This document shows positions 4,825 through 15,129 of a stretch of 20,826 nucleotides of DNA, one piece after another. This DNA is from a virus. Made by a program: the position numbers and the translations under genes. The first letter of the stretch is position 1. Every line of letters begins with the position of its first letter. The notes beneath the pieces were generated by a model. The model had not been told where the DNA came from and searched no databases. It saw only the letters and a list, made by a program, of their open reading frames with translations. The stretch spans positions 1-20,826 of IMG/VR virus record IMGVR_UViG_3300025671_000673; one strand, 5' to 3'.

Positions 4825-5037
4825 CGTGCCTGTAGACAGAGTACCCGTAAACGTCAACGCGGGGATCGTTACAGTGCCTGTGAACGTAGGAGAAGCTGTG
4901 TTTGCCTTGGTTGCAATCGCTGTAGATATAGCGTTGAACTCAGTGTCAAACTCGCTACCACGAATAACTTTACCGCTATCCCCAGAAGGTAAACTGTCCT
5001 TAGCAGTAAAGTTTGTTGTCTTTGTATAGTTACTCAT
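4804..5037 (-). CDS. Short tail fibre-like module, 77 aa
   Basis: A 77-residue protein, MSNYTKTTNFTAKDSLPSGD at the N-terminus, which resembles the virion-attachment start of phage tail fibres (TKTTNFTAKDSLPSGD...EFDTEFNAISTAIATKAN), followed by the Thr-rich fibre repeat SPTFTGTVTIPALTFTG and a C-terminal TIDGGTY. It overlaps the tail tube B-like gene by an ATGA junction and the next gene by TGATG. Either it is a complete small fibre or baseplate-type protein, or a detached N-terminal attachment module whose receptor-binding part is encoded elsewhere. It shares the same last residues with the 412-aa fibre at 13456-14694. Confidence 0.75.
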   Translation of the reverse strand: MSNYTKTTNFTAKDSLPSGDSGKVIRGSEFDTEFNAISTAIATKANTASPTFTGTVTIPALTFTGTLSTGTIDGGTY

Positions 5038-6551
5038 ACTGTTTTACCCATTAGTGCTAATACGTTAATTTCTTGGAGGGATAAAGCAGACCCATCAATG
5101 TCAGCTTCTAGTCCTATCGTAATAATACTTCCGTTACCTGTTGCTTGAACAGAGTTTCTAGTCGTAAGTTCACCACCAGTAAACTCACCGATAGCAAACT
5201 CGTCAACACCGTAGTACGCAGGTACTTGGTTGCCTACAGTAAACTCGTAGGTTTTAAAGTCCGTAGCCAGATCGTAAGCCCACTTCATAAACACTGTTGC
5301 GCCTGTAGCACCAACCAGAGTCGGCCTGAGTTTCTTGAGCAACTTTGTTTTAGCAGGATCACCAAACGTCAGACCCGGACTGTAGTACCTAAAGCGGTAC
5401 GCTGTTGTGTTGTCTACGTAACCTGAGTACGTCCCTATTCCGTCAGTTGTTCCTATGTACAACGTACCGTCAGTTTTAACTTCAAACGACTTGTGTGGAA
5501 TAGAAGTCCACCTAGTAACCCTGTACGCACCGTTCTCTAGCCTACCCTTTAGATCAAAGCAGTACGCCGTAAGTTGATCTGGGAACGTGATAACGTAAAA
5601 AGAGTTCTCAGGGCTGTACACAGATGCCGTAGGTAACGTCCTGTTGTTAATCAAACTAATAATCTCAGTCTTTACGTTTAGACTCAGGTCAGATATAGGC
5701 AGTGACTTCTCTTGGATAGTACGTCCTAAACTCCTGAGTCCTGTGTTAGACATAAACAAAACATCTGTGCCGATGTGCTGGACAGAGTTTCTACAGATGC
5801 ACCCAACGCCAGCTACCGTGTCAACCAGAGCCATATTAGCTGGACTAGAGGCTCCTCCGTACACAAGTATGCTGTGCTTACCAAAGATAATCAGAGTGTT
5901 GTTGTGTGCTGCCAACGCTCTAACTTCGTCGTACCCATCAGGCCAAGCCTTAGATACATCTATAGAACCACTGGAACCACCAGTGAAGTCTGAACCTATC
6001 AAAAGATCAGACCAGTAAATCGTTTGTGTGTCTGTTGCGTTGTCTACTACCCACAGTCGTCCGTAAGCTGCCAGAGCCTCGTGACACTTGAGGGTTGCTG
6101 CAGTAGCCCCACCGTTAGCAACAGTAAACGTGCGTAGTCCTGTAGCGTTGTCGTACACCAGAGGATCGTACCCACGTTGGAAGAAGTACGCCTTGTCGTT
6201 AAAGTTTACAATCTTCCAGTTGTTAGTTGTAATAGTGTAAGCTGCAGGAGTAACATCAGTCAGGGTAGTTGTCCCTGTCATTATCTTGTTGTTACCTGCG
6301 CTGAACACTACCTCGTTACCTGCGTCATCGTAGAAGTAGTGGATCTTGTGTACGTAGTCTGAACCTAACTCTGTCTTGTCAGTAGTGATTACGTCGATAC
6401 CCTTACGTGCAGCAATACGTCCACGCTTGTCAATCACTGCGTTGTCAGCAACGTCAGCGTAAGAAGGATCCTGCGCGATAGGCGAGTCTTCTGTGTTGAC
6501 ACCTTTGAACGCTGGAGCAACTAGGTTAATACTTTGTAGCGGCTGTGCCAT
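5034..6551 (-). CDS. Tail tubular protein B-like (tail nozzle), 505 aa
   Basis: A 505-residue protein starting MAQPLQSINLVAPAFKGVNT, with the features of podovirus tail tube B / nozzle proteins: an N-terminal 'GVNTEDSPIAQDPSYADVADNAVIDKRGRIAARKG' type region that declares non-default values, followed by many beta-strand repeats rich in Tyr, Thr, Gly and Asp suggestive of a propeller. It is shorter than T7 gp12 (794 aa). It directly follows the gp11-like gene, which is the standard order. The RBS AGGAG overlaps the stop region of the preceding gene, and the ATG at 6551 is 11 bases after that stop. The protein would form the distal tail tube through which DNA leaves. Recognition is by sequence style and order, not by a search. 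Confidence 0.82.
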   Translation of the reverse strand: MAQPLQSINLVAPAFKGVNTEDSPIAQDPSYADVADNAVIDKRGRIAARKGIDVITTDKTELGSDYVHKIHYFYDDAGNEVVFSAGNNKIMTGTTTLTDVTPAAYTITTNNWKIVNFNDKAYFFQRGYDPLVYDNATGLRTFTVANGGATAATLKCHEALAAYGRLWVVDNATDTQTIYWSDLLIGSDFTGGSSGSIDVSKAWPDGYDEVRALAAHNNTLIIFGKHSILVYGGASSPANMALVDTVAGVGCICRNSVQHIGTDVLFMSNTGLRSLGRTIQEKSLPISDLSLNVKTEIISLINNRTLPTASVYSPENSFYVITFPDQLTAYCFDLKGRLENGAYRVTRWTSIPHKSFEVKTDGTLYIGTTDGIGTYSGYVDNTTAYRFRYYSPGLTFGDPAKTKLLKKLRPTLVGATGATVFMKWAYDLATDFKTYEFTVGNQVPAYYGVDEFAIGEFTGGELTTRNSVQATGNGSIITIGLEADIDGSALSLQEINVLALMGKTV

Positions 6552-6562
6552 ACGTCAGGCTC

Positions 6563-7210
6563 CTACGGAGTGTACCAGATGGTTTCTTCAGGGTGCTTCT
6601 GAGCGTCCATAGCAATCGCATCAGACAAAAACTTATCAGCAATACCAAAGTACTCAGGTGCTGATGTACCGCCTGTCTCGCCACGCTCACGCGCTAGTAA
6701 TGCTACTGCTAAGTGAATCACAGGTTGACTAGGAATCAACAACACATCTGTGTCAGAGCTTAACTCAGGGTTCCTGAGCGTACAGTTGAATCTCAGGCTG
6801 TACACACCGTCAGGCTTAGGATAGATGTCTACCTGAGTGTCACCACTGGAGTCAACACCGTTGTACGTGTAGTACTCAGGTGAGCCTGACACGGGGTCTT
6901 GATTCAAGTACTTATTGTTAAACCAGTGCTGAGTCTGGTACTGCATAAAGATGTTTGAGGTATCGTTGATTACGTCGAGCACCTTGATCTTGTTCTGTGA
7001 TCCAGTTAGCACGTAGTTAAAAATACCAGCAGACGTAGTAACCGTCAGGGTAGTCCTGAGTGCTGACCAATCCCAAGCATCCTCTACCATCTTCTTAGCG
7101 TCGTTTACAAAGTCACCTACCATCTTGCTGTACGTGTTGGCAGTAACGCTGGACACTTCTTCTTCACGTAAACGTCTGAGGACGTTGTTTACTAAGTTTA
7201 AATATGTCAT
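6563..7210 (-). CDS. Tail tubular protein A-like (adaptor/gatekeeper), 215 aa
   Basis: A 215-residue protein close in length to T7 gp11 (196 aa). It has the family's pattern: a helical N-terminus (LVNNVLRRLREEEVSS...VGDFVNDAKKMVEDAWDWSALRTT), a central beta domain ending in a DIYPKPDGVYSLRF segment, and a C-terminal helix containing PVIHLAVALLARERGE. It forms the ring below the portal in podoviruses. The ATG overlaps the stop of the Cys-rich 846-aa gene (ATGA, 4 bases). It precedes the gp12-like gene as in T7-like genomes. Confidence 0.85.
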   Translation of the reverse strand: MTYLNLVNNVLRRLREEEVSSVTANTYSKMVGDFVNDAKKMVEDAWDWSALRTTLTVTTSAGIFNYVLTGSQNKIKVLDVINDTSNIFMQYQTQHWFNNKYLNQDPVSGSPEYYTYNGVDSSGDTQVDIYPKPDGVYSLRFNCTLRNPELSSDTDVLLIPSQPVIHLAVALLARERGETGGTSAPEYFGIADKFLSDAIAMDAQKHPEETIWYTP

Positions 7211-9747
7211 GCTCTACCGCCTCCAGTGCCAGTAAAGAGTCCTGCTAAGTAATCTGTAATTGGAAAAGAGCGACCAGCTAAAAGCGTAGGATCGCTTTGT
7301 ATACCCATAGAAATTTTTGGCGCTTCTGCGGTAAAGCCCTTGACTGCTGTTTTTTTACTAGATACGGGAGGCAAGTCTATGTCAGTACTTGGGCTGTCAA
7401 TATCTTCTGTCTTGACACATTCACCGTTTTCATCACGCTCGTAGCCAGACGGACAATCGGGCTTTACACATTGACCAAAAACATTACGCTCTGTGCCTTC
7501 AGGACAAGGCTCCTGATCTGGGAGACACTTTCGTAAATCTGGATCCCAAGAGTACCCTTCGCCACAAACTGTGGGAGGTTCTATGCAAACCCCGTCTTCG
7601 TCTATATCCCAACCTTCGGGACACTGAATTTCAATTTCAACACATTCACCAGATAGATCGTCACGTTGAAATCCCTCAGGGCAGGTGATGTCTACCTCAA
7701 TCGTGACGCATTCTCCTAAATCTTGATCCCATTCGTAGCCCTCGCCACAGACTACGGGAGGTTCTATGCAAACCCCGTCTTCATCAACGTCCCAACCTTC
7801 GGGACACTTAACTTCAGGAATATCAGGTACGCATTTCTCTAGTGCAGGATTCCAAGAATAGCCATCATCACAAACTTGAGGAGGCTCTATGCAAACGCCG
7901 TCTTCATCAACGTCCCAACCTTCGGGACACTGAACATCGGGGATCTTAACACACCCTTTGCCGTCTCCGTTGTCTATGAATCCTTCGGGACAGACTTCAG
8001 GTATTTCAGGTACGCACTCCCCTAGATCGGCGTCCCATATTAGACCTTCTCCACACGGGTTTGGTATAGGAATACACTGTTTTAGCGCCTCGTCCCACTC
8101 TAAACCTTCGGCGCACTCAGGTAGTGAAATGTCTGCACTAGGGCACTCACCATCTTCATTTTGTAACCACTCAGGACAGCCATCAGGTAAATCTAAGTTA
8201 CACAAAAAGCTGATTGGGCTGTCTTCTGAACAGGGATCACCTAAAACTCCACCTATTGCGGTTAGTGATGCCCAATCTAAGCCCTCAAGAGCAGGCCACA
8301 AGAAGTCTAAAGAGCCACCGTCGTTGAAGTAGTCGTAAAGTGCTTTAACAGCATCAGTAGTACTCATTCCACCGTCTATCAACGCCTGTATACCGACCCC
8401 AACAAGACCGTTGATGGAATCGGTGGATATGTTAGTTTCTCCTTCTCTGAAAAAGTTACTAACGTCAATACCAGACTCACCTAGTAGGTCAGTGATGTAG
8501 GATTGTATCTTTTCTGTTCCCCAAGATCCTACAGCGTTGAGCACAATACCCTCTAGATCTTCTCCTTTTATTACTCCGGTTAGTATTCCTTCTATAATAG
8601 AAAGGGCGCTGTCCTGAGATATCCCAAGAATATCTGCGAGCATCTGGCCCTTTTCAATAGCCCAAGTACCCGCAGTGCCTACCACTTCTCCGTTTACTAT
8701 CCACCCGCCGTAAGTGCCGGGATCAGCCGCTATTAGGTCGTCAAAAAAACCACCAACGCCTCCTAAAAGTGCTGACTGAAGAACTTTAGATGGGTCTATT
8801 TCACCAGTGAGGATTGCCTGACCCAACATAGAGGATATAGCCCCTGCAGCCGCACCAGCACCAGCACCGCCACCTAAAGCACCAGCAATACCGGGACCCA
8901 CTGCACCACCAGTAAAACCGCCAACCATTACACCCGCGACAATAGCTCCCCAATCTACGCCGGGGGCTTCGTAAGTACGGACGTACGTTGAGCCGTTCCA
9001 GAGGTACTTGTCTCCGTCGCCGTTAGTGTACGATCCAACAATGCCGTACTTTTCCATAAGCTGTGCATTAATATCGCTAGCCAGCCACTTTTCCATACTC
9101 GCCAGAGAATCTTGCTGTATTGCTACGTCCGTACGTGCCCTACAAATTTCTTCATCGCGTCCAGTTAGCCCTGTACACGGATTCCTGTTGCTGTTTATTG
9201 CAGCGGTCATAAAGTTCGTAGGATCTACTAACTCTCCAGACTCAATGTAACTCTGCCGTTCGCTAATGTATTCCCAATAGGTATCCCAATCTAGATCATT
9301 CTGACTCTGGAACGTGGACATAGAGCCACTGTCCCAGTACTTTTTAATCTCCTCTTCAGTGTAGTAACCTCCGGGGTTTTCCCCGATTCCTGCAGTAGTA
9401 GACCCTTGGTAGTTTTCACCGCCTTCTTCGCCTGTCTCGAACGGAGGTGCCCAGTAGTAAACACGAACGCCAGCCTCATTGTAAAAGTGACCGTCCTCTC
9501 CAATTGTCTTTTGCTTACGAGGGTCGCCCATTGGTCCGTCGTACGCAATGCACTCACCTTTTTCATTATAAATGTAACCTTCAGGACAGCCCTTATCTCC
9601 GCTTTCTGTGTCCGTTAGGTTAATGTTAGGATCGTCAGCGCCTAGCGTAGAATTATCGGCTGACGGCGTTTCCGCGATAATGGAGTCATTAAGAACCTCC
9701 TTATCTGTTAAACCGCTAAAAAGTCCTCTATTTGAACTAATAGCCAT
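7207..9747 (-). CDS. Cys-rich repeat protein with glycine-rich hydrophobic core, 846 aa
   Basis: An 846-residue protein that I cannot assign to a known family. Residues 1-50 are polar. Residues 54-66 hold one Cys loop (CPEGYIYNEKGEC). Residues 265-310 are a Gly/Ala-rich hydrophobic stretch with a glycine-zipper look (GVMVGGFTGGAVGPGIAGAL), and about 320-500 are mostly helical with more Gly. Residues 524-777 hold 13 further loops of the type C-x-E-G-(W/Y/L/F)-x(6-8)-C, 13 or 14 residues from Cys to Cys, joined by short Pro-rich linkers. Three copies of W-D-x-D-E-D-G-x-C (DxDxDG at 612-617, 653-658, 714-719) look like calcium-loop cores. There is no clear signal peptide. The C-terminus is GLFTGTGGGRA. 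It lies between the holin-like genes and the gp11-like adaptor, so a virion, tail or lysis role is possible; none is shown. Confidence 0.85.
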   Translation of the reverse strand: MAISSNRGLFSGLTDKEVLNDSIIAETPSADNSTLGADDPNINLTDTESGDKGCPEGYIYNEKGECIAYDGPMGDPRKQKTIGEDGHFYNEAGVRVYYWAPPFETGEEGGENYQGSTTAGIGENPGGYYTEEEIKKYWDSGSMSTFQSQNDLDWDTYWEYISERQSYIESGELVDPTNFMTAAINSNRNPCTGLTGRDEEICRARTDVAIQQDSLASMEKWLASDINAQLMEKYGIVGSYTNGDGDKYLWNGSTYVRTYEAPGVDWGAIVAGVMVGGFTGGAVGPGIAGALGGGAGAGAAAGAISSMLGQAILTGEIDPSKVLQSALLGGVGGFFDDLIAADPGTYGGWIVNGEVVGTAGTWAIEKGQMLADILGISQDSALSIIEGILTGVIKGEDLEGIVLNAVGSWGTEKIQSYITDLLGESGIDVSNFFREGETNISTDSINGLVGVGIQALIDGGMSTTDAVKALYDYFNDGGSLDFLWPALEGLDWASLTAIGGVLGDPCSEDSPISFLCNLDLPDGCPEWLQNEDGECPSADISLPECAEGLEWDEALKQCIPIPNPCGEGLIWDADLGECVPEIPEVCPEGFIDNGDGKGCVKIPDVQCPEGWDVDEDGVCIEPPQVCDDGYSWNPALEKCVPDIPEVKCPEGWDVDEDGVCIEPPVVCGEGYEWDQDLGECVTIEVDITCPEGFQRDDLSGECVEIEIQCPEGWDIDEDGVCIEPPTVCGEGYSWDPDLRKCLPDQEPCPEGTERNVFGQCVKPDCPSGYERDENGECVKTEDIDSPSTDIDLPPVSSKKTAVKGFTAEAPKISMGIQSDPTLLAGRSFPITDYLAGLFTGTGGGRA
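7414..8178 (-). repeat. Cys-loop repeat array inside the 846-aa gene
   Basis: This part codes 13 Cys-bounded loops (residues 524-777). At DNA level, three 52-base units at 7573-7624, 7756-7807 and 7879-7930 are nearly identical and code CPEGWD(V/I)DEDGVCIEPP. Their start-to-start distances are 183 and 123 bases, i.e. 61 and 41 codons, so the array grew by in-frame duplication of a two-loop unit. Differences among units are mainly synonymous or conservative. Confidence 0.85.
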
Positions 9748-9750
9748 AGC

Positions 9751-10125
9751 TTACTTACCCTTTAGCTGCATCAGCTTGTCAGCACCACGTATGCCAAAGC
9801 TGGCTGTGACTGCAACGTACAAAAGATATTGATACCACTCAGGTAGTCTATCTAGCTCTGCAAAGGCAACGCCTACGCGACCAATAATATCAAGATCGTT
9901 CATACCTACGCCCCACATAATTGCTATTACAGGCGCACTTAGGACTACTGTGAACCACTCGTCTTTCCACGAGGATGCACTAGCCTGTGCCATGTGTTGT
10001 TCCCACGTAGCAGTGTTCTGTATAACCTGCATTGTGGCTGCATGTTTTGCTTGTGACTGCTCGTGACGGTTAGTCAACCAAGTCTTAGCGAGTCCAGCAA
10101 GAGGACTAATTAACGCTTGCCACAC
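9751..10125 (-). CDS. Putative holin, GTA-type 3TM family, 124 aa
   Basis: A 124-residue protein that looks like the 'holin of 3TMs, for gene-transfer release' family. The N-terminal half is a polar amphipathic helix (KTWLTNRHEQSQAKHAATMQ). Hydrophobic segments lie at about residues 57-75 (WFTVVLSAPVIAIMWGVGM) and 97-114 (WYQYLLYVAVTASFGIRG), with a basic tail. The start is GTG at 10125, directly after the TAG of the 57-aa gene, with AGGAG 10 bases upstream. It would form pores in the inner membrane at lysis. It lies in a run of three membrane proteins, which supports a lysis or envelope role. Confidence in the family is moderate. Confidence 0.75.
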   Translation of the reverse strand: MWQALISPLAGLAKTWLTNRHEQSQAKHAATMQVIQNTATWEQHMAQASASSWKDEWFTVVLSAPVIAIMWGVGMNDLDIIGRVGVAFAELDRLPEWYQYLLYVAVTASFGIRGADKLMQLKGK

Positions 10126-11089: not shown

Positions 11090-13456
11090 TTATGCTCCTT
11101 TAAGCGCCGCTACTTCGGCTTTTAAGTCTTGAATTTCTTTAATCATCATTGGTACTAGCTTGCTATAGTCTACTTGCCACATATCATCGTCAGTTTCACC
11201 TTGCGTTACTGCTTCAGGCGCAACGTCAACAAGTTCTTGTGCAACCATCCCGTACTTTTGATGCGAGCCATCAGTTTTCCAATCAAACGAACGTACACGG
11301 ATAGCATCAATGTTACCCGCTGGTGCGTCTACGATGTTTTCTTTGAGACGTTGGTCTGAAGATGTATTAAATTGTGTTGAATTGCTATAGGTTGTTACAG
11401 AACCTACATTGCCGTTAGAGTTGTAAAGTAACCAATGCCCCGCACTACCCGCAGTATATCGTGCTGTTTTATAGTAACCAGCATCACCGCGTAGCTCTAT
11501 CCCCTCAGAGCCCCCACCAACAGAAGTAGTAACACCAATCAGCAAGTTACCAGAGCTATCAATACGCATACGCTCTGTGCCATCACAAGTAAATACTACG
11601 TTGGAACTAGAAACGGCATTGGTAAAATCTGAAGCAATGACTAGATCCGTCGCGTTATTATAAATTGCCCCAATGACGGTTCCAGATGAATTTTCAAAAT
11701 CAATTTCAGAGCCATTGGTTCCTTGTAAGGTCAAAACCCTATAATTTGCATAGGAATTTGGAGTAGTACCAATACCAACTTGACCAGAGCTATCAATACG
11801 CATGGCTTCATTTAAATTAGAGCCGTTGTGCGTAGAGAAAGTAATAGCGCCTGTTCTGCTTGTATGGCTTACATTGATAAAGTTCATCTGAGATACAACT
11901 AAGCCATTACTGTTGTACCCACCTATGTTTGAAAAATTACCGTCTGTAGCTGATGTATTGCACAGGTTTATTACTGCCCCACTGTTAGTAGCAAGGTTTG
12001 TTGAAGTGCTAGACGCAGATTGCAGTATTGATGCGCTTGTTACTTCACTGCCAGCAGTTGTAATGCTTGATGATGTTTTACCAACTAGCAATCTACCAGA
12101 GCTATCAATACGCATACGCTCTGTTAGCTCATCAGCAGTCGTAATAGCTGTGCCGTGAGTGTAGAACCTAAGCTGTGTTCCCCAGTCGATACTGTTTTCT
12201 CGCGCAAAACCGATACCAGCAGAAAGGCCGTCATTAGAACCGCCAAGAATGGCTACTTCTGAGTTTGTGCTTCCCAAGCCACCATCAAGACGCACCGCAC
12301 CACCGTCAAAAGCACTTCCAGAAGTCTTGCTTGCTGTGTTTGAGGTAACGCCAACTTGCAAAGGATTTACCAGCGAGCTTATGCCAATACCAACATTACC
12401 GCTACTGTCGAGTGTCATGCCAACAGTCGGTGTTGAGCCATAAGCAAACAACAAATTCTGCCCACCGCTGGCAAAGTTTGTACCAATTCTGTACTGAAGC
12501 GTATTGCTTTCGTCCGTAAAGTCTATGTTGTGGCCCTGCCCCGCACCACCTTTTTGCAAAACAATTGAAGTGTAGCCAGTAGAGTCAATGTGCAAACCAG
12601 TTCCAAGAATAAATGAAGGGTTACTAGTACCAATACCAACGTTGCCGTTAGAGTCGATACGCATCGTTTCAGACCATGTTAATGTTCCTCCAGCAGTTCC
12701 AGAGACCGCTGTGTCCCATACATGAAATCCCTGTTGTTGCCTATAACGCCCTGCTAAATTTGAATTTTTGTAGATCCAATTTGTTCCGTTGTAATAAGCG
12801 TTGTTAGTTACAAACGTAGTATCGTTATCAGCAGAAAAAGACGCGTAAGGGCCAAGATCAATAGCGTCAAATGCTGCGCTCCAGCTACTTGGAGTAGTGC
12901 CAATACCAACGTTGCCGCTGGAGTCGATACGCATACGCTCTGAAGTATTAGTCCAAAACAACATATTATTGCTATTATGATCGTATTGAATCAGCCCACG
13001 ATACTGATCACTAGCTGATGTACCGTCAGCAAATGCCAGCCCACCTTGGCTAGTAGTTCCTGAATAAACGGTGATTCCTTCTGCGCCCGATCCTGTTCCA
13101 ACCACTAAGTTGTTACATTGTGCCGCATTAAACGTAGCAGGACTCGTAGTACCAATACCAACATTCTGACTAGCATCAATCGTAATAGCAGTGCTTGTGG
13201 CGTTATCGTCGATGCCTGTGGAGGTGAACGTGGTGAAGGTTCCTGCGGCGGCAGATGATCCGCCAATAACAGTGCCGTCGATAGTTCCTGCGTTAATGTC
13301 AATGGTGCTAGGGTTAGTACCAACCTCGATCACCGTACCGCCTGAGTCTTCTGTGTAGAGGCGCTTATTAGTAAGATCCAGCGCAGGTTCACCTTGGACA
13401 AGATCCCCTGCTAACGGTGCGCCTGAGCCGTTCTTCAGCTTAATCGTAGTAGCCAT
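11090..13456 (-). CDS. Tail fibre/spike with C-terminal Peptidase_S74 chaperone, 788 aa
   Basis: A 788-residue fibre. The N-terminal part is a short generic fibre start (KLKNGSGAPLAGDLVQGEPA) followed by TIDGTVIGGSSAAAGTFTTF. The shaft contains seven variants of M-R-I-D-S-S-G-N-V-G-I-G-T-T, typical of beta-rich trimeric fibre shafts. The last about 90 residues form the intramolecular chaperone of endosialidase-type fibres: S-D-Q-R-L-K-E-N starts at Ser700 with Lys705, then FDWKTDG...KYGMVAQEL and DYSKLVPMMIKEIQDLKAEV as the final coiled coil. In this family the chaperone folds the trimer and then cuts itself off just before that Ser using the Ser/Lys pair; here the cut would fall near position 11359. 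The start overlaps the previous fibre gene (TAATG). It probably binds the host surface. Confidence 0.9.
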   Translation of the reverse strand: MATTIKLKNGSGAPLAGDLVQGEPALDLTNKRLYTEDSGGTVIEVGTNPSTIDINAGTIDGTVIGGSSAAAGTFTTFTSTGIDDNATSTAITIDASQNVGIGTTSPATFNAAQCNNLVVGTGSGAEGITVYSGTTSQGGLAFADGTSASDQYRGLIQYDHNSNNMLFWTNTSERMRIDSSGNVGIGTTPSSWSAAFDAIDLGPYASFSADNDTTFVTNNAYYNGTNWIYKNSNLAGRYRQQQGFHVWDTAVSGTAGGTLTWSETMRIDSNGNVGIGTSNPSFILGTGLHIDSTGYTSIVLQKGGAGQGHNIDFTDESNTLQYRIGTNFASGGQNLLFAYGSTPTVGMTLDSSGNVGIGISSLVNPLQVGVTSNTASKTSGSAFDGGAVRLDGGLGSTNSEVAILGGSNDGLSAGIGFARENSIDWGTQLRFYTHGTAITTADELTERMRIDSSGRLLVGKTSSSITTAGSEVTSASILQSASSTSTNLATNSGAVINLCNTSATDGNFSNIGGYNSNGLVVSQMNFINVSHTSRTGAITFSTHNGSNLNEAMRIDSSGQVGIGTTPNSYANYRVLTLQGTNGSEIDFENSSGTVIGAIYNNATDLVIASDFTNAVSSSNVVFTCDGTERMRIDSSGNLLIGVTTSVGGGSEGIELRGDAGYYKTARYTAGSAGHWLLYNSNGNVGSVTTYSNSTQFNTSSDQRLKENIVDAPAGNIDAIRVRSFDWKTDGSHQKYGMVAQELVDVAPEAVTQGETDDDMWQVDYSKLVPMMIKEIQDLKAEVAALKGA
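11549..13185 (-). repeat. Dispersed 'RIDSSGNVGIGT' shaft repeats within the S74 fibre
   Basis: Seven divergent copies of a motif of about 17 residues are spread through the fibre. Three share a long DNA core that reads ccagagctatcaatacgcat on the plus strand, near 11550, 11784 and 12096; further copies near 12651, 12917, 12401 and 13165 are more diverged. The units are separated by unrelated sequence of 150 to 350 bases, so this looks like a mosaic shaft rather than a simple tandem array. Confidence 0.75.
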
Positions 13457-14697: not shown

Positions 14698-15129
14698 CTA
14701 TATCCTGTTTGATTTGCTCAGGTTGTCCTGTGCAGGAATTACCTGTAAATTCCAAGGAACGTGTAAGCCACAACAGTTTTGTCCACGGAGGGGAACTATA
14801 TGGTCAACGTGATGAACTACTCCGGTTAGCTCTGAACGCAAGTCGCGTAGTTCGTAAATCTCTTCGATCATCCATTTGTGATCGTCAGTAAGCCACTTAG
14901 GTTTTGCTTGTCGAACACCTTTGGCTCTTAGATGTCCTTTAGTAATATAATATTGCTTTCTTTTTGTTCTATAATAATGTCTGTTTTGAGCGTTAATAGT
15001 TTCTCTGCGTTCTTTACGTTTTTCATTAACACAAAACTTACATTGTCCAAAGTAGCCATCTTTGTTTCTTGGCTGCTTAAAAAATTCTGAATAATCTTTT
15101 GTTTCTTTGCAAGTACTGCACTGTTTCAT
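14698..15129 (-). CDS. Free-standing HNH endonuclease with zinc ribbon, 143 aa
   Basis: A 143-residue HNH nuclease. An N-terminal zinc ribbon has Cys4, Cys7, Cys30 and Cys33 (CSTC ... CKFC). A very basic helical middle (KRKERRETINAQNRHYYRTK) follows. The HNH fold is at residues 104-140: H106-H107-V-D109-H110-I-V-P-L, then N127 in PWNLQVIP and N136/K139 in QDNLSKSN. Such genes cut DNA and spread as homing endonucleases, often next to capsid or fibre genes. It sits between the capsid gene and the fibre genes with its own GCAGGAG ribosome site. Its 5' half (about 14920-15130) is clearly more AT-rich than its neighbours, which suggests recent arrival. All catalytic residues are present, so it may be active. 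Confidence 0.92.
   Translation of the reverse strand: MKQCSTCKETKDYSEFFKQPRNKDGYFGQCKFCVNEKRKERRETINAQNRHYYRTKRKQYYITKGHLRAKGVRQAKPKWLTDDHKWMIEEIYELRDLRSELTGVVHHVDHIVPLRGQNCCGLHVPWNLQVIPAQDNLSKSNRI

Follow-up and report, generated by a model that had tools for sequence, protein, structure and literature searches.

A hypervariable gene slot in marine podovirus-like phages encodes proteins with paired cysteines and a putative stalk or adhesin role

The locus analysed here raises the question of what an 846-aa protein with a long array of cysteine pairs does directly upstream of a phage tail adaptor. The window, i.e., the whole stretch of DNA analysed (20,826 nucleotides; 20.8 kb), is an IMG/VR virus record in which every gene discussed lies on the minus strand. 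In that direction, the end of the terminase is followed by the portal, small genes, a scaffold-like gene, the major capsid gene, an endonuclease VII-like HNH gene, two fibre genes, a DUF7936 gene, a coil/membrane gene, a holin-like gene, the 846-aa gene, an SU10-type adaptor, a nozzle-like gene, a 77-aa gene and three large genes. The window portal is just 22-27% identical to the portals of HMO-2011-type marine phages, and the podovirus-like clade represented by the window has no cultured phage as a close relative. Rfam and tRNA searches returned no hits.

The ORF that a first-pass annotation had placed at 7207-9747 was confirmed, on the minus strand; it starts with ATG and overlaps the adaptor gene by 4 bases. 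That annotation counted 28 Cys in 14 loops of 13 or 14 residues. The 14 loops are present, whereas the protein, P0001, contains 32 Cys forming 16 consecutive pairs, since the pairs 191-202 and 506-516 had been missed; 14 of the pairs are C-x(10-12)-C loops with an inclusive length of 12-14 residues. Their arrangement is as described before, with one loop near the N-terminus (54-66) and 13 in tandem (524-535 through 765-777), and so are the three loops with W-D-x-D-E-D-G-x-C, found as W-D-[VI]-D-E-D-G-V-C, and the hydrophobic stretch, which is Gly/Ala-rich with a Kyte-Doolittle mean peaking at 1.53. Between residues 500 and 790, we observed 13 C-x(10-14)-C loops; 5000 shuffles of this segment averaged 3.5 such loops and never exceeded 9. 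Over the other 19 proteins of the window, Cys amounts to 0.4% in total. Self matches of the array DNA correspond to diverged duplications of approximately 86-103 bp with 83-85% identity.

Using the adaptor protein as a query on IMG/VR viral contigs, we obtained at least 596 confirmed relatives. In each fetched locus, the product of the gene next to the adaptor on its upstream side was taken as the slot protein, which yielded 102 distinct complete slot proteins. The slot context is largely constant across loci (fibre, DUF7936, g155, holin-like, slot, adaptor and nozzle genes); the features of the window locus are listed in Table 1. In one relative (L247, 3660-5258), a gene of holin-like size and a slot-like gene are found side by side past the nozzle gene, not ahead of the adaptor.

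Table 1. Positions of the slot gene, the segments of its product and the neighbouring genes in the window
Feature	Position	Strand	Basis or remark
846-aa slot protein P0001	7207..9747	-	ORF and translation; complete gene, position upstream of adaptor kept in relatives
First Cys loop, residues 54-66, CPEGYIYNEKGEC	9550..9588	-	Cys-pair listing
Cys pair 191-202	9142..9177	-	Missed by the first-pass annotation
Conserved N-terminal helical domain, residues 130-260, with DGDKYLWNGSTYVRT hairpin at its end	8968..9360	-	Alignment, AlphaFold2 model
Gly/Ala-rich hydrophobic stretch, residues 261-330	8758..8967	-	Hydropathy; low model confidence
Cys-loop array, residues 506-777, 14 consecutive Cys pairs	7417..8232	-	Cys listing; model: beta hairpin in most loops
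Loop 607-619, CPEGWDVDEDGVC	7891..7929	-	Cys-loop listing
Loop 648-660, CPEGWDVDEDGVC	7768..7806	-	Cys-loop listing
Loop 709-721, CPEGWDIDEDGVC	7585..7623	-	Cys-loop listing
Cys-free C-terminal tail, residues 804-846, proposed docking segment	7210..7338	-	DNA alignment to L034, L031
SU10-type tail adaptor, constant downstream neighbour of slot	6563..7210	-	PF24175, 1e-13; at least 596 confirmed IMG/VR relatives
Probable nozzle / head-closure-type tail protein	5034..6551	-	PHROG matches, position; the name nozzle is inferred
Holin-like gene, constant upstream neighbour of slot	9751..10125	-	phrog_2524, 2.5e-31; weak holin match phrog_3427; synteny

Among the 102 complete slot proteins, the number of Cys ranges from 0 to 84: 42 lack Cys, 56 have an even number and the remaining 4 just one. 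In at least one of these 4 (L203), the single Cys belongs to an upstream part of the ORF that is probably a spurious extension. All 46 slot proteins with six or more Cys have an even number, in 43 distinct spacing patterns, a count taken over related sequences that are not independent trials; the control on flank genes gave 204 odd and 108 even numbers. Because the counts spread from 6 to 84, the even rule is not due to the inheritance of one count. In alignments of locally diverged homologues, Cys was identical at 323 of 324 positions (99.7%), with Trp as the next most conserved residue (0.949). Totals such as 26, 46, 54, 58 and 62 are not divisible by four and so speak against four-Cys metal sites; the even count, the paired conservation and this freedom from multiples of four all point to disulfide bonding rather than metal binding. 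Based on the even counts and the near-absolute conservation of Cys, which strongly support the disulfides suggested in the first pass, the pairs are almost certainly disulfides, very probably formed in the working state of the protein. The first-pass annotation had named homologues that keep the gene and lose the paired Cys as grounds for refutation. Such homologues exist, namely the 42 of 102 complete slot genes without Cys; the loss is modular, whole arrays being swapped for another stalk, so that it counts against disulfides as a conserved function of the gene, but not against disulfides in P0001. A profile of the N-terminal domain also detected longer members at the same position, up to 1,700 aa and mostly without Cys, and in more distant relatives from metagenome bins the slot gene encodes 391-602 aa with 0-2 Cys. 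Given these distant relatives, the Cys arrays look like a stalk type acquired within an older, Cys-free slot protein.

The slot gene is also hypervariable. When its DNA was compared with 24 relatives, the covered fraction had a median of 0.00 and a maximum of 0.05, whereas the adaptor, nozzle, holin and MCP genes were fully covered; the only comparably variable neighbours were the tail fibre (0.18) and the HNH gene. Contigs L009 and L010 share 98.4% identity over 2,685 bp upstream and 98.8% over 3,622 bp downstream of slot genes that are wholly different, with breakpoints at most 8 bp from the slot start and stop. In L028/L029 and L031/L033, as in this pair, the slot gene is replaced at or near the start and stop codons between flanks that are 97-99% identical. 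Replacement can also be confined to the stalk: L054 has about seven tandem 69-bp Cys-loop repeats where L061 has Asp/Pro repeats, and their flanking DNA is 98% and 93% identical. L034 and L031 share the last 43 codons with the window slot gene, the rest being different except for the start codon region. Slot proteins had no or merely partial similarity in 142 of 200 contig pairs with adaptors at least 95% identical. No pair of slot proteins carried exact blocks in changed order; the variation therefore consists of whole-gene or whole-stalk exchange and repeat expansion, not of visible permutation. Assembly chimerism is an unlikely source of the swaps because many contigs show them, several with kilobases of matching flank.

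Two further genes of the window vary among relatives. Mosaicism is also seen in one more large gene, the S74-type tail fibre (11090-13456), of which a median of 18% aligns at DNA level to nine close relatives. The endonuclease VII/HNH-like gene between the capsid and fibre genes (14698-15129) is either absent or cannot be aligned in the six relatives that cover this region, and is probably a mobile gene.

Type I slot proteins have a common N-terminal helical domain with a DGDKxxWNGSxxVKT hairpin, plus the Gly/Ala-rich stretch; in a 61-sequence alignment of this domain, L230, Y234, G235, G245 and W250-G252 are invariant. The middle part differs among relatives, being coiled coil (L155, L203; assigned by eye from heptad-like sequence), collagen-like GxY (L181, L203), Thr/Gly (L114) or Pro-rich (L112) in homologues that lack Cys, and Asp/Pro in L061. 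As judged from these sequences, the loop array of P0001 sits at the stalk position that relatives fill with coiled-coil, collagen-like or Asp/Pro repeats. The last 45 aa lack Cys in all 102 slot proteins, and the tail occurs in a few recurring forms. Three loci have an additional small gene, of 204-282 aa, separating the slot gene from the adaptor (L054, 2596-3207; L061, 2401-3042; L063, 242-1087), and its product ends in the same tail type as the slot protein, which fits the tail as a docking signal. None of 93 slot proteins has a signal-peptide-like N-terminus; oxidation would therefore be late or take place in the host periplasm. Thioredoxin genes were absent from eight related records of uncertain completeness. 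A DUF4214 match was found in three Cys-rich slot proteins (best 4e-10), and in L229 (5608-8784) it covers residues 7-51 as an added N-terminal module. In L027 (2082-3772), the slot ORF shifts frame just before a Gly-rich linker, leaving the C-terminal tail in another frame, which may reflect either a sequencing error or slippage within the G-rich run.

The N-terminal domain is the most confident part of the AlphaFold2 model, in which the Gly/Ala stretch has low confidence; no match to the N-terminal model was found by Foldseek in the viral and PDB libraries. The array model, of low-to-moderate confidence (mean pLDDT 60, pTM 0.17), has beta hairpins in most loops, and Foldseek matched it to LRP2/megalin (6e-6) and NELL2, with viral fibre shafts at weaker E-values. 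By tblastn against 50,697 phage records, neither whole P0001, L112, L034 and L173 nor the L047 array had a match, and the window's own array matched inoviruses alone (E 0.01-0.3). Searches of the PDB by sequence returned nothing for P0001 or for the N-terminal profile; the array profile had a single match, to Fn14, at chance level (E 0.056). NCBIfam contained no relevant match. A scan of genome contigs returned just six matches, all metagenome-assembled and in bins of conflicting phyla, so the host cannot be named.

Known bead families were also considered for the loops. The calcium loops suggested in the first pass, similar to thrombospondin type 3 or dockerin modules, are not a family trait: the DxDxDG core is present in 3 of the 14 loops of P0001, and of 672 distinct loops across the family only 2 have it, both from the window gene. 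An EGF-like domain was rejected, as each bead has two Cys instead of six in EGF order and cEGF scored under its curated cut-off.

We propose, with a probability of about 0.5, that the slot protein is a C-terminally docked, recombination-diversified stalk or adhesin of the virion. In a marine podovirus-like clade, the gene would occupy a cassette slot and encode a virion-associated stalk protein whose conserved Cys-free tail docks on the phage tail, probably on the adaptor or nozzle encoded by the next genes. The middle would be an interchangeable stalk, here of approximately 14 disulfide-clamped beta-hairpin beads, and the N-terminal domain would face outward as the host-contact or adsorption part. 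The local loops of 12-14 residues may close without an isomerase after lysis, in oxygenated water, giving a stiff, protease-resistant stalk, and the whole gene would be swapped by recombination in conserved flanks, as in the host-recognition genes of marine phages. The first-pass proposal of a surface adhesin gains indirect support, short of proof, from a slot at least as hypervariable as the tail fibre, the swaps with coiled-coil and collagen stalks and the conserved C-terminal tail. Against it, the N-terminal fold is unmatched and the Gly/Ala stretch equally fits an ejected protein. Docking by the N-terminus is usual in tailed-phage fibres, and a C-terminal dock would be unusual.

The conserved tail might instead package the protein in the head or tail lumen, as an internal virion protein that is ejected to the periplasm, where the Gly/Ala stretch would meet the membrane and host DsbA-type enzymes would close the loops. 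We consider this version of the membrane-inserting ejection protein raised in the first pass rather unlikely. The hydrophobic stretch belongs to the type I N-terminal domain, three slot proteins match tape-measure PHROGs weakly (E 0.004-0.08), the C-terminal tail is conserved, and ejected proteins also can vary between relatives; however, a clearly hydrophobic segment (Kyte-Doolittle mean of at least 1.6) is reached by just 32 of 93 slot proteins, many Cys-rich ones falling below, outer fibres typically have coiled-coil or collagen-like stalks, and g508, g402 and g575, past the nozzle, appear better placed as an ejection set. The strongly acidic composition of the slot proteins (median net charge -125), without an N-terminal signal, and the adjoining holin-like gene, with the L247 gene pair after the nozzle, would also suit a non-structural protein that is secreted or released by lysis, coats host cells or debris and, e.g., excludes rival phages, the disulfides being needed because it works outside the cell. 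That role is improbable in view of the 4-bp overlap with the tail adaptor, the conserved C-terminal tail and the interchange of the stalk with fibre-type repeats.

It is quite improbable, too, that the loops are carbohydrate-binding modules and the array a polyvalent glycan binder, not a passive stalk. As in the hevein-fold hairpin of CBM14 (peritrophin-A), the loops have a C-P-x-G start, a 13-residue Cys spacing and a beta hairpin, matching Cys450-Cys463 of the chitotriosidase CBM14, in which Trp465 is important in chitin binding (PMC5459812). CBM_14 scored above its curated cut-off in P0001 (23.8 bits), and L054 matched it strongly in four stretches (6e-16); the matches span positions 27-53 and 21-46, respectively, of the ~53 in the complete, three-disulfide model. 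However, just 2 of the 46 Cys-rich slot proteins match CBM_14, the remaining disulfides and Cys of CBM14 are missing, and a Trp two residues past the second loop Cys, equivalent to Trp465 (PMC5459812), was found in 0 of 314 loops; chitin binding was set aside because this binding Trp is absent from all 314.

If the slot protein is an adhesin, the question becomes how phages assembling in a reducing cytoplasm use disulfide-built host-contact proteins, and the slot would hold a natural library of compact disulfide hairpins. Tentatively, gene-precise recombination may supply the cassette slot from a large pool of combinatorial disulfide mini-domains, of several bead types and with up to 84 Cys, that act as virion adhesins, reduced during cytoplasmic assembly and activated by oxidation after lysis, as a phage counterpart of the EGF/LDLR-type extracellular mosaics of animals. 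In this marine phage group, which is abundant and uncultured, the second highly variable gene besides the tail fibre encodes an unnamed disulfide-rich family. P0001 had no whole-length match among cultured phages, and the family, its strict Cys pairing (up to 84) and the fixed slot, in which C-terminal tail forms recur, are new with respect to the libraries and papers searched.

With the tail of Kuravirus SU10, the window shares the PF24175 adaptor homologue and presumably the portal-adaptor-nozzle plan, whereas no equivalent of the slot protein was recognised among the SU10 proteins (PMC9509320). PHROG matches of the array led to ORF3 of the Stenotrophomonas inovirus PSH1, a phrog_4454 member (9e-169). 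Proteins of phrog_4454 and phrog_18418, this ORF3 included, have tandem C-P-x-G-x(7)-G-x-C beads like those of P0001 (direct BLASTP 5e-10). ORF3 (L248, 2227-3612) begins like a signal peptide, contains consecutive CPxG...GxC beads and lies upstream of Zot, the usual site of filamentous-phage minor coat or adsorption genes. Unlike P0001, it has a signal peptide and a membrane anchor and belongs to an ssDNA phage assembled through the envelope; the likeness is that of the array alone, residues 618-721 of P0001 aligning with 162-261 of 477 in phrog_4454 and leaving out its signal peptide and C-terminal anchor. Proteins of the EGF/LDLR type (LRP2/megalin, NELL2, Pfs25) are, like P0001, chains of small Cys-clamped hairpins with local fold matches, but P0001 has two Cys per bead, not six, and the TM-scores are low. 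Swappable host-recognition genes are already known in marine phages as metaviromic islands, which are enriched in host-recognition genes, including those for tail fibres and binding domains, in a text that does not mention cysteine (PMC3909814). As in these islands, gene-sized regions at the slot are unrelated between otherwise near-identical marine phages (PMC3909814), the slot gene being replaced as a unit between near-identical flanks. In contrast to the islands, the exchange takes place at one fixed slot, the C-terminal tail is often kept and the Cys are strictly paired.
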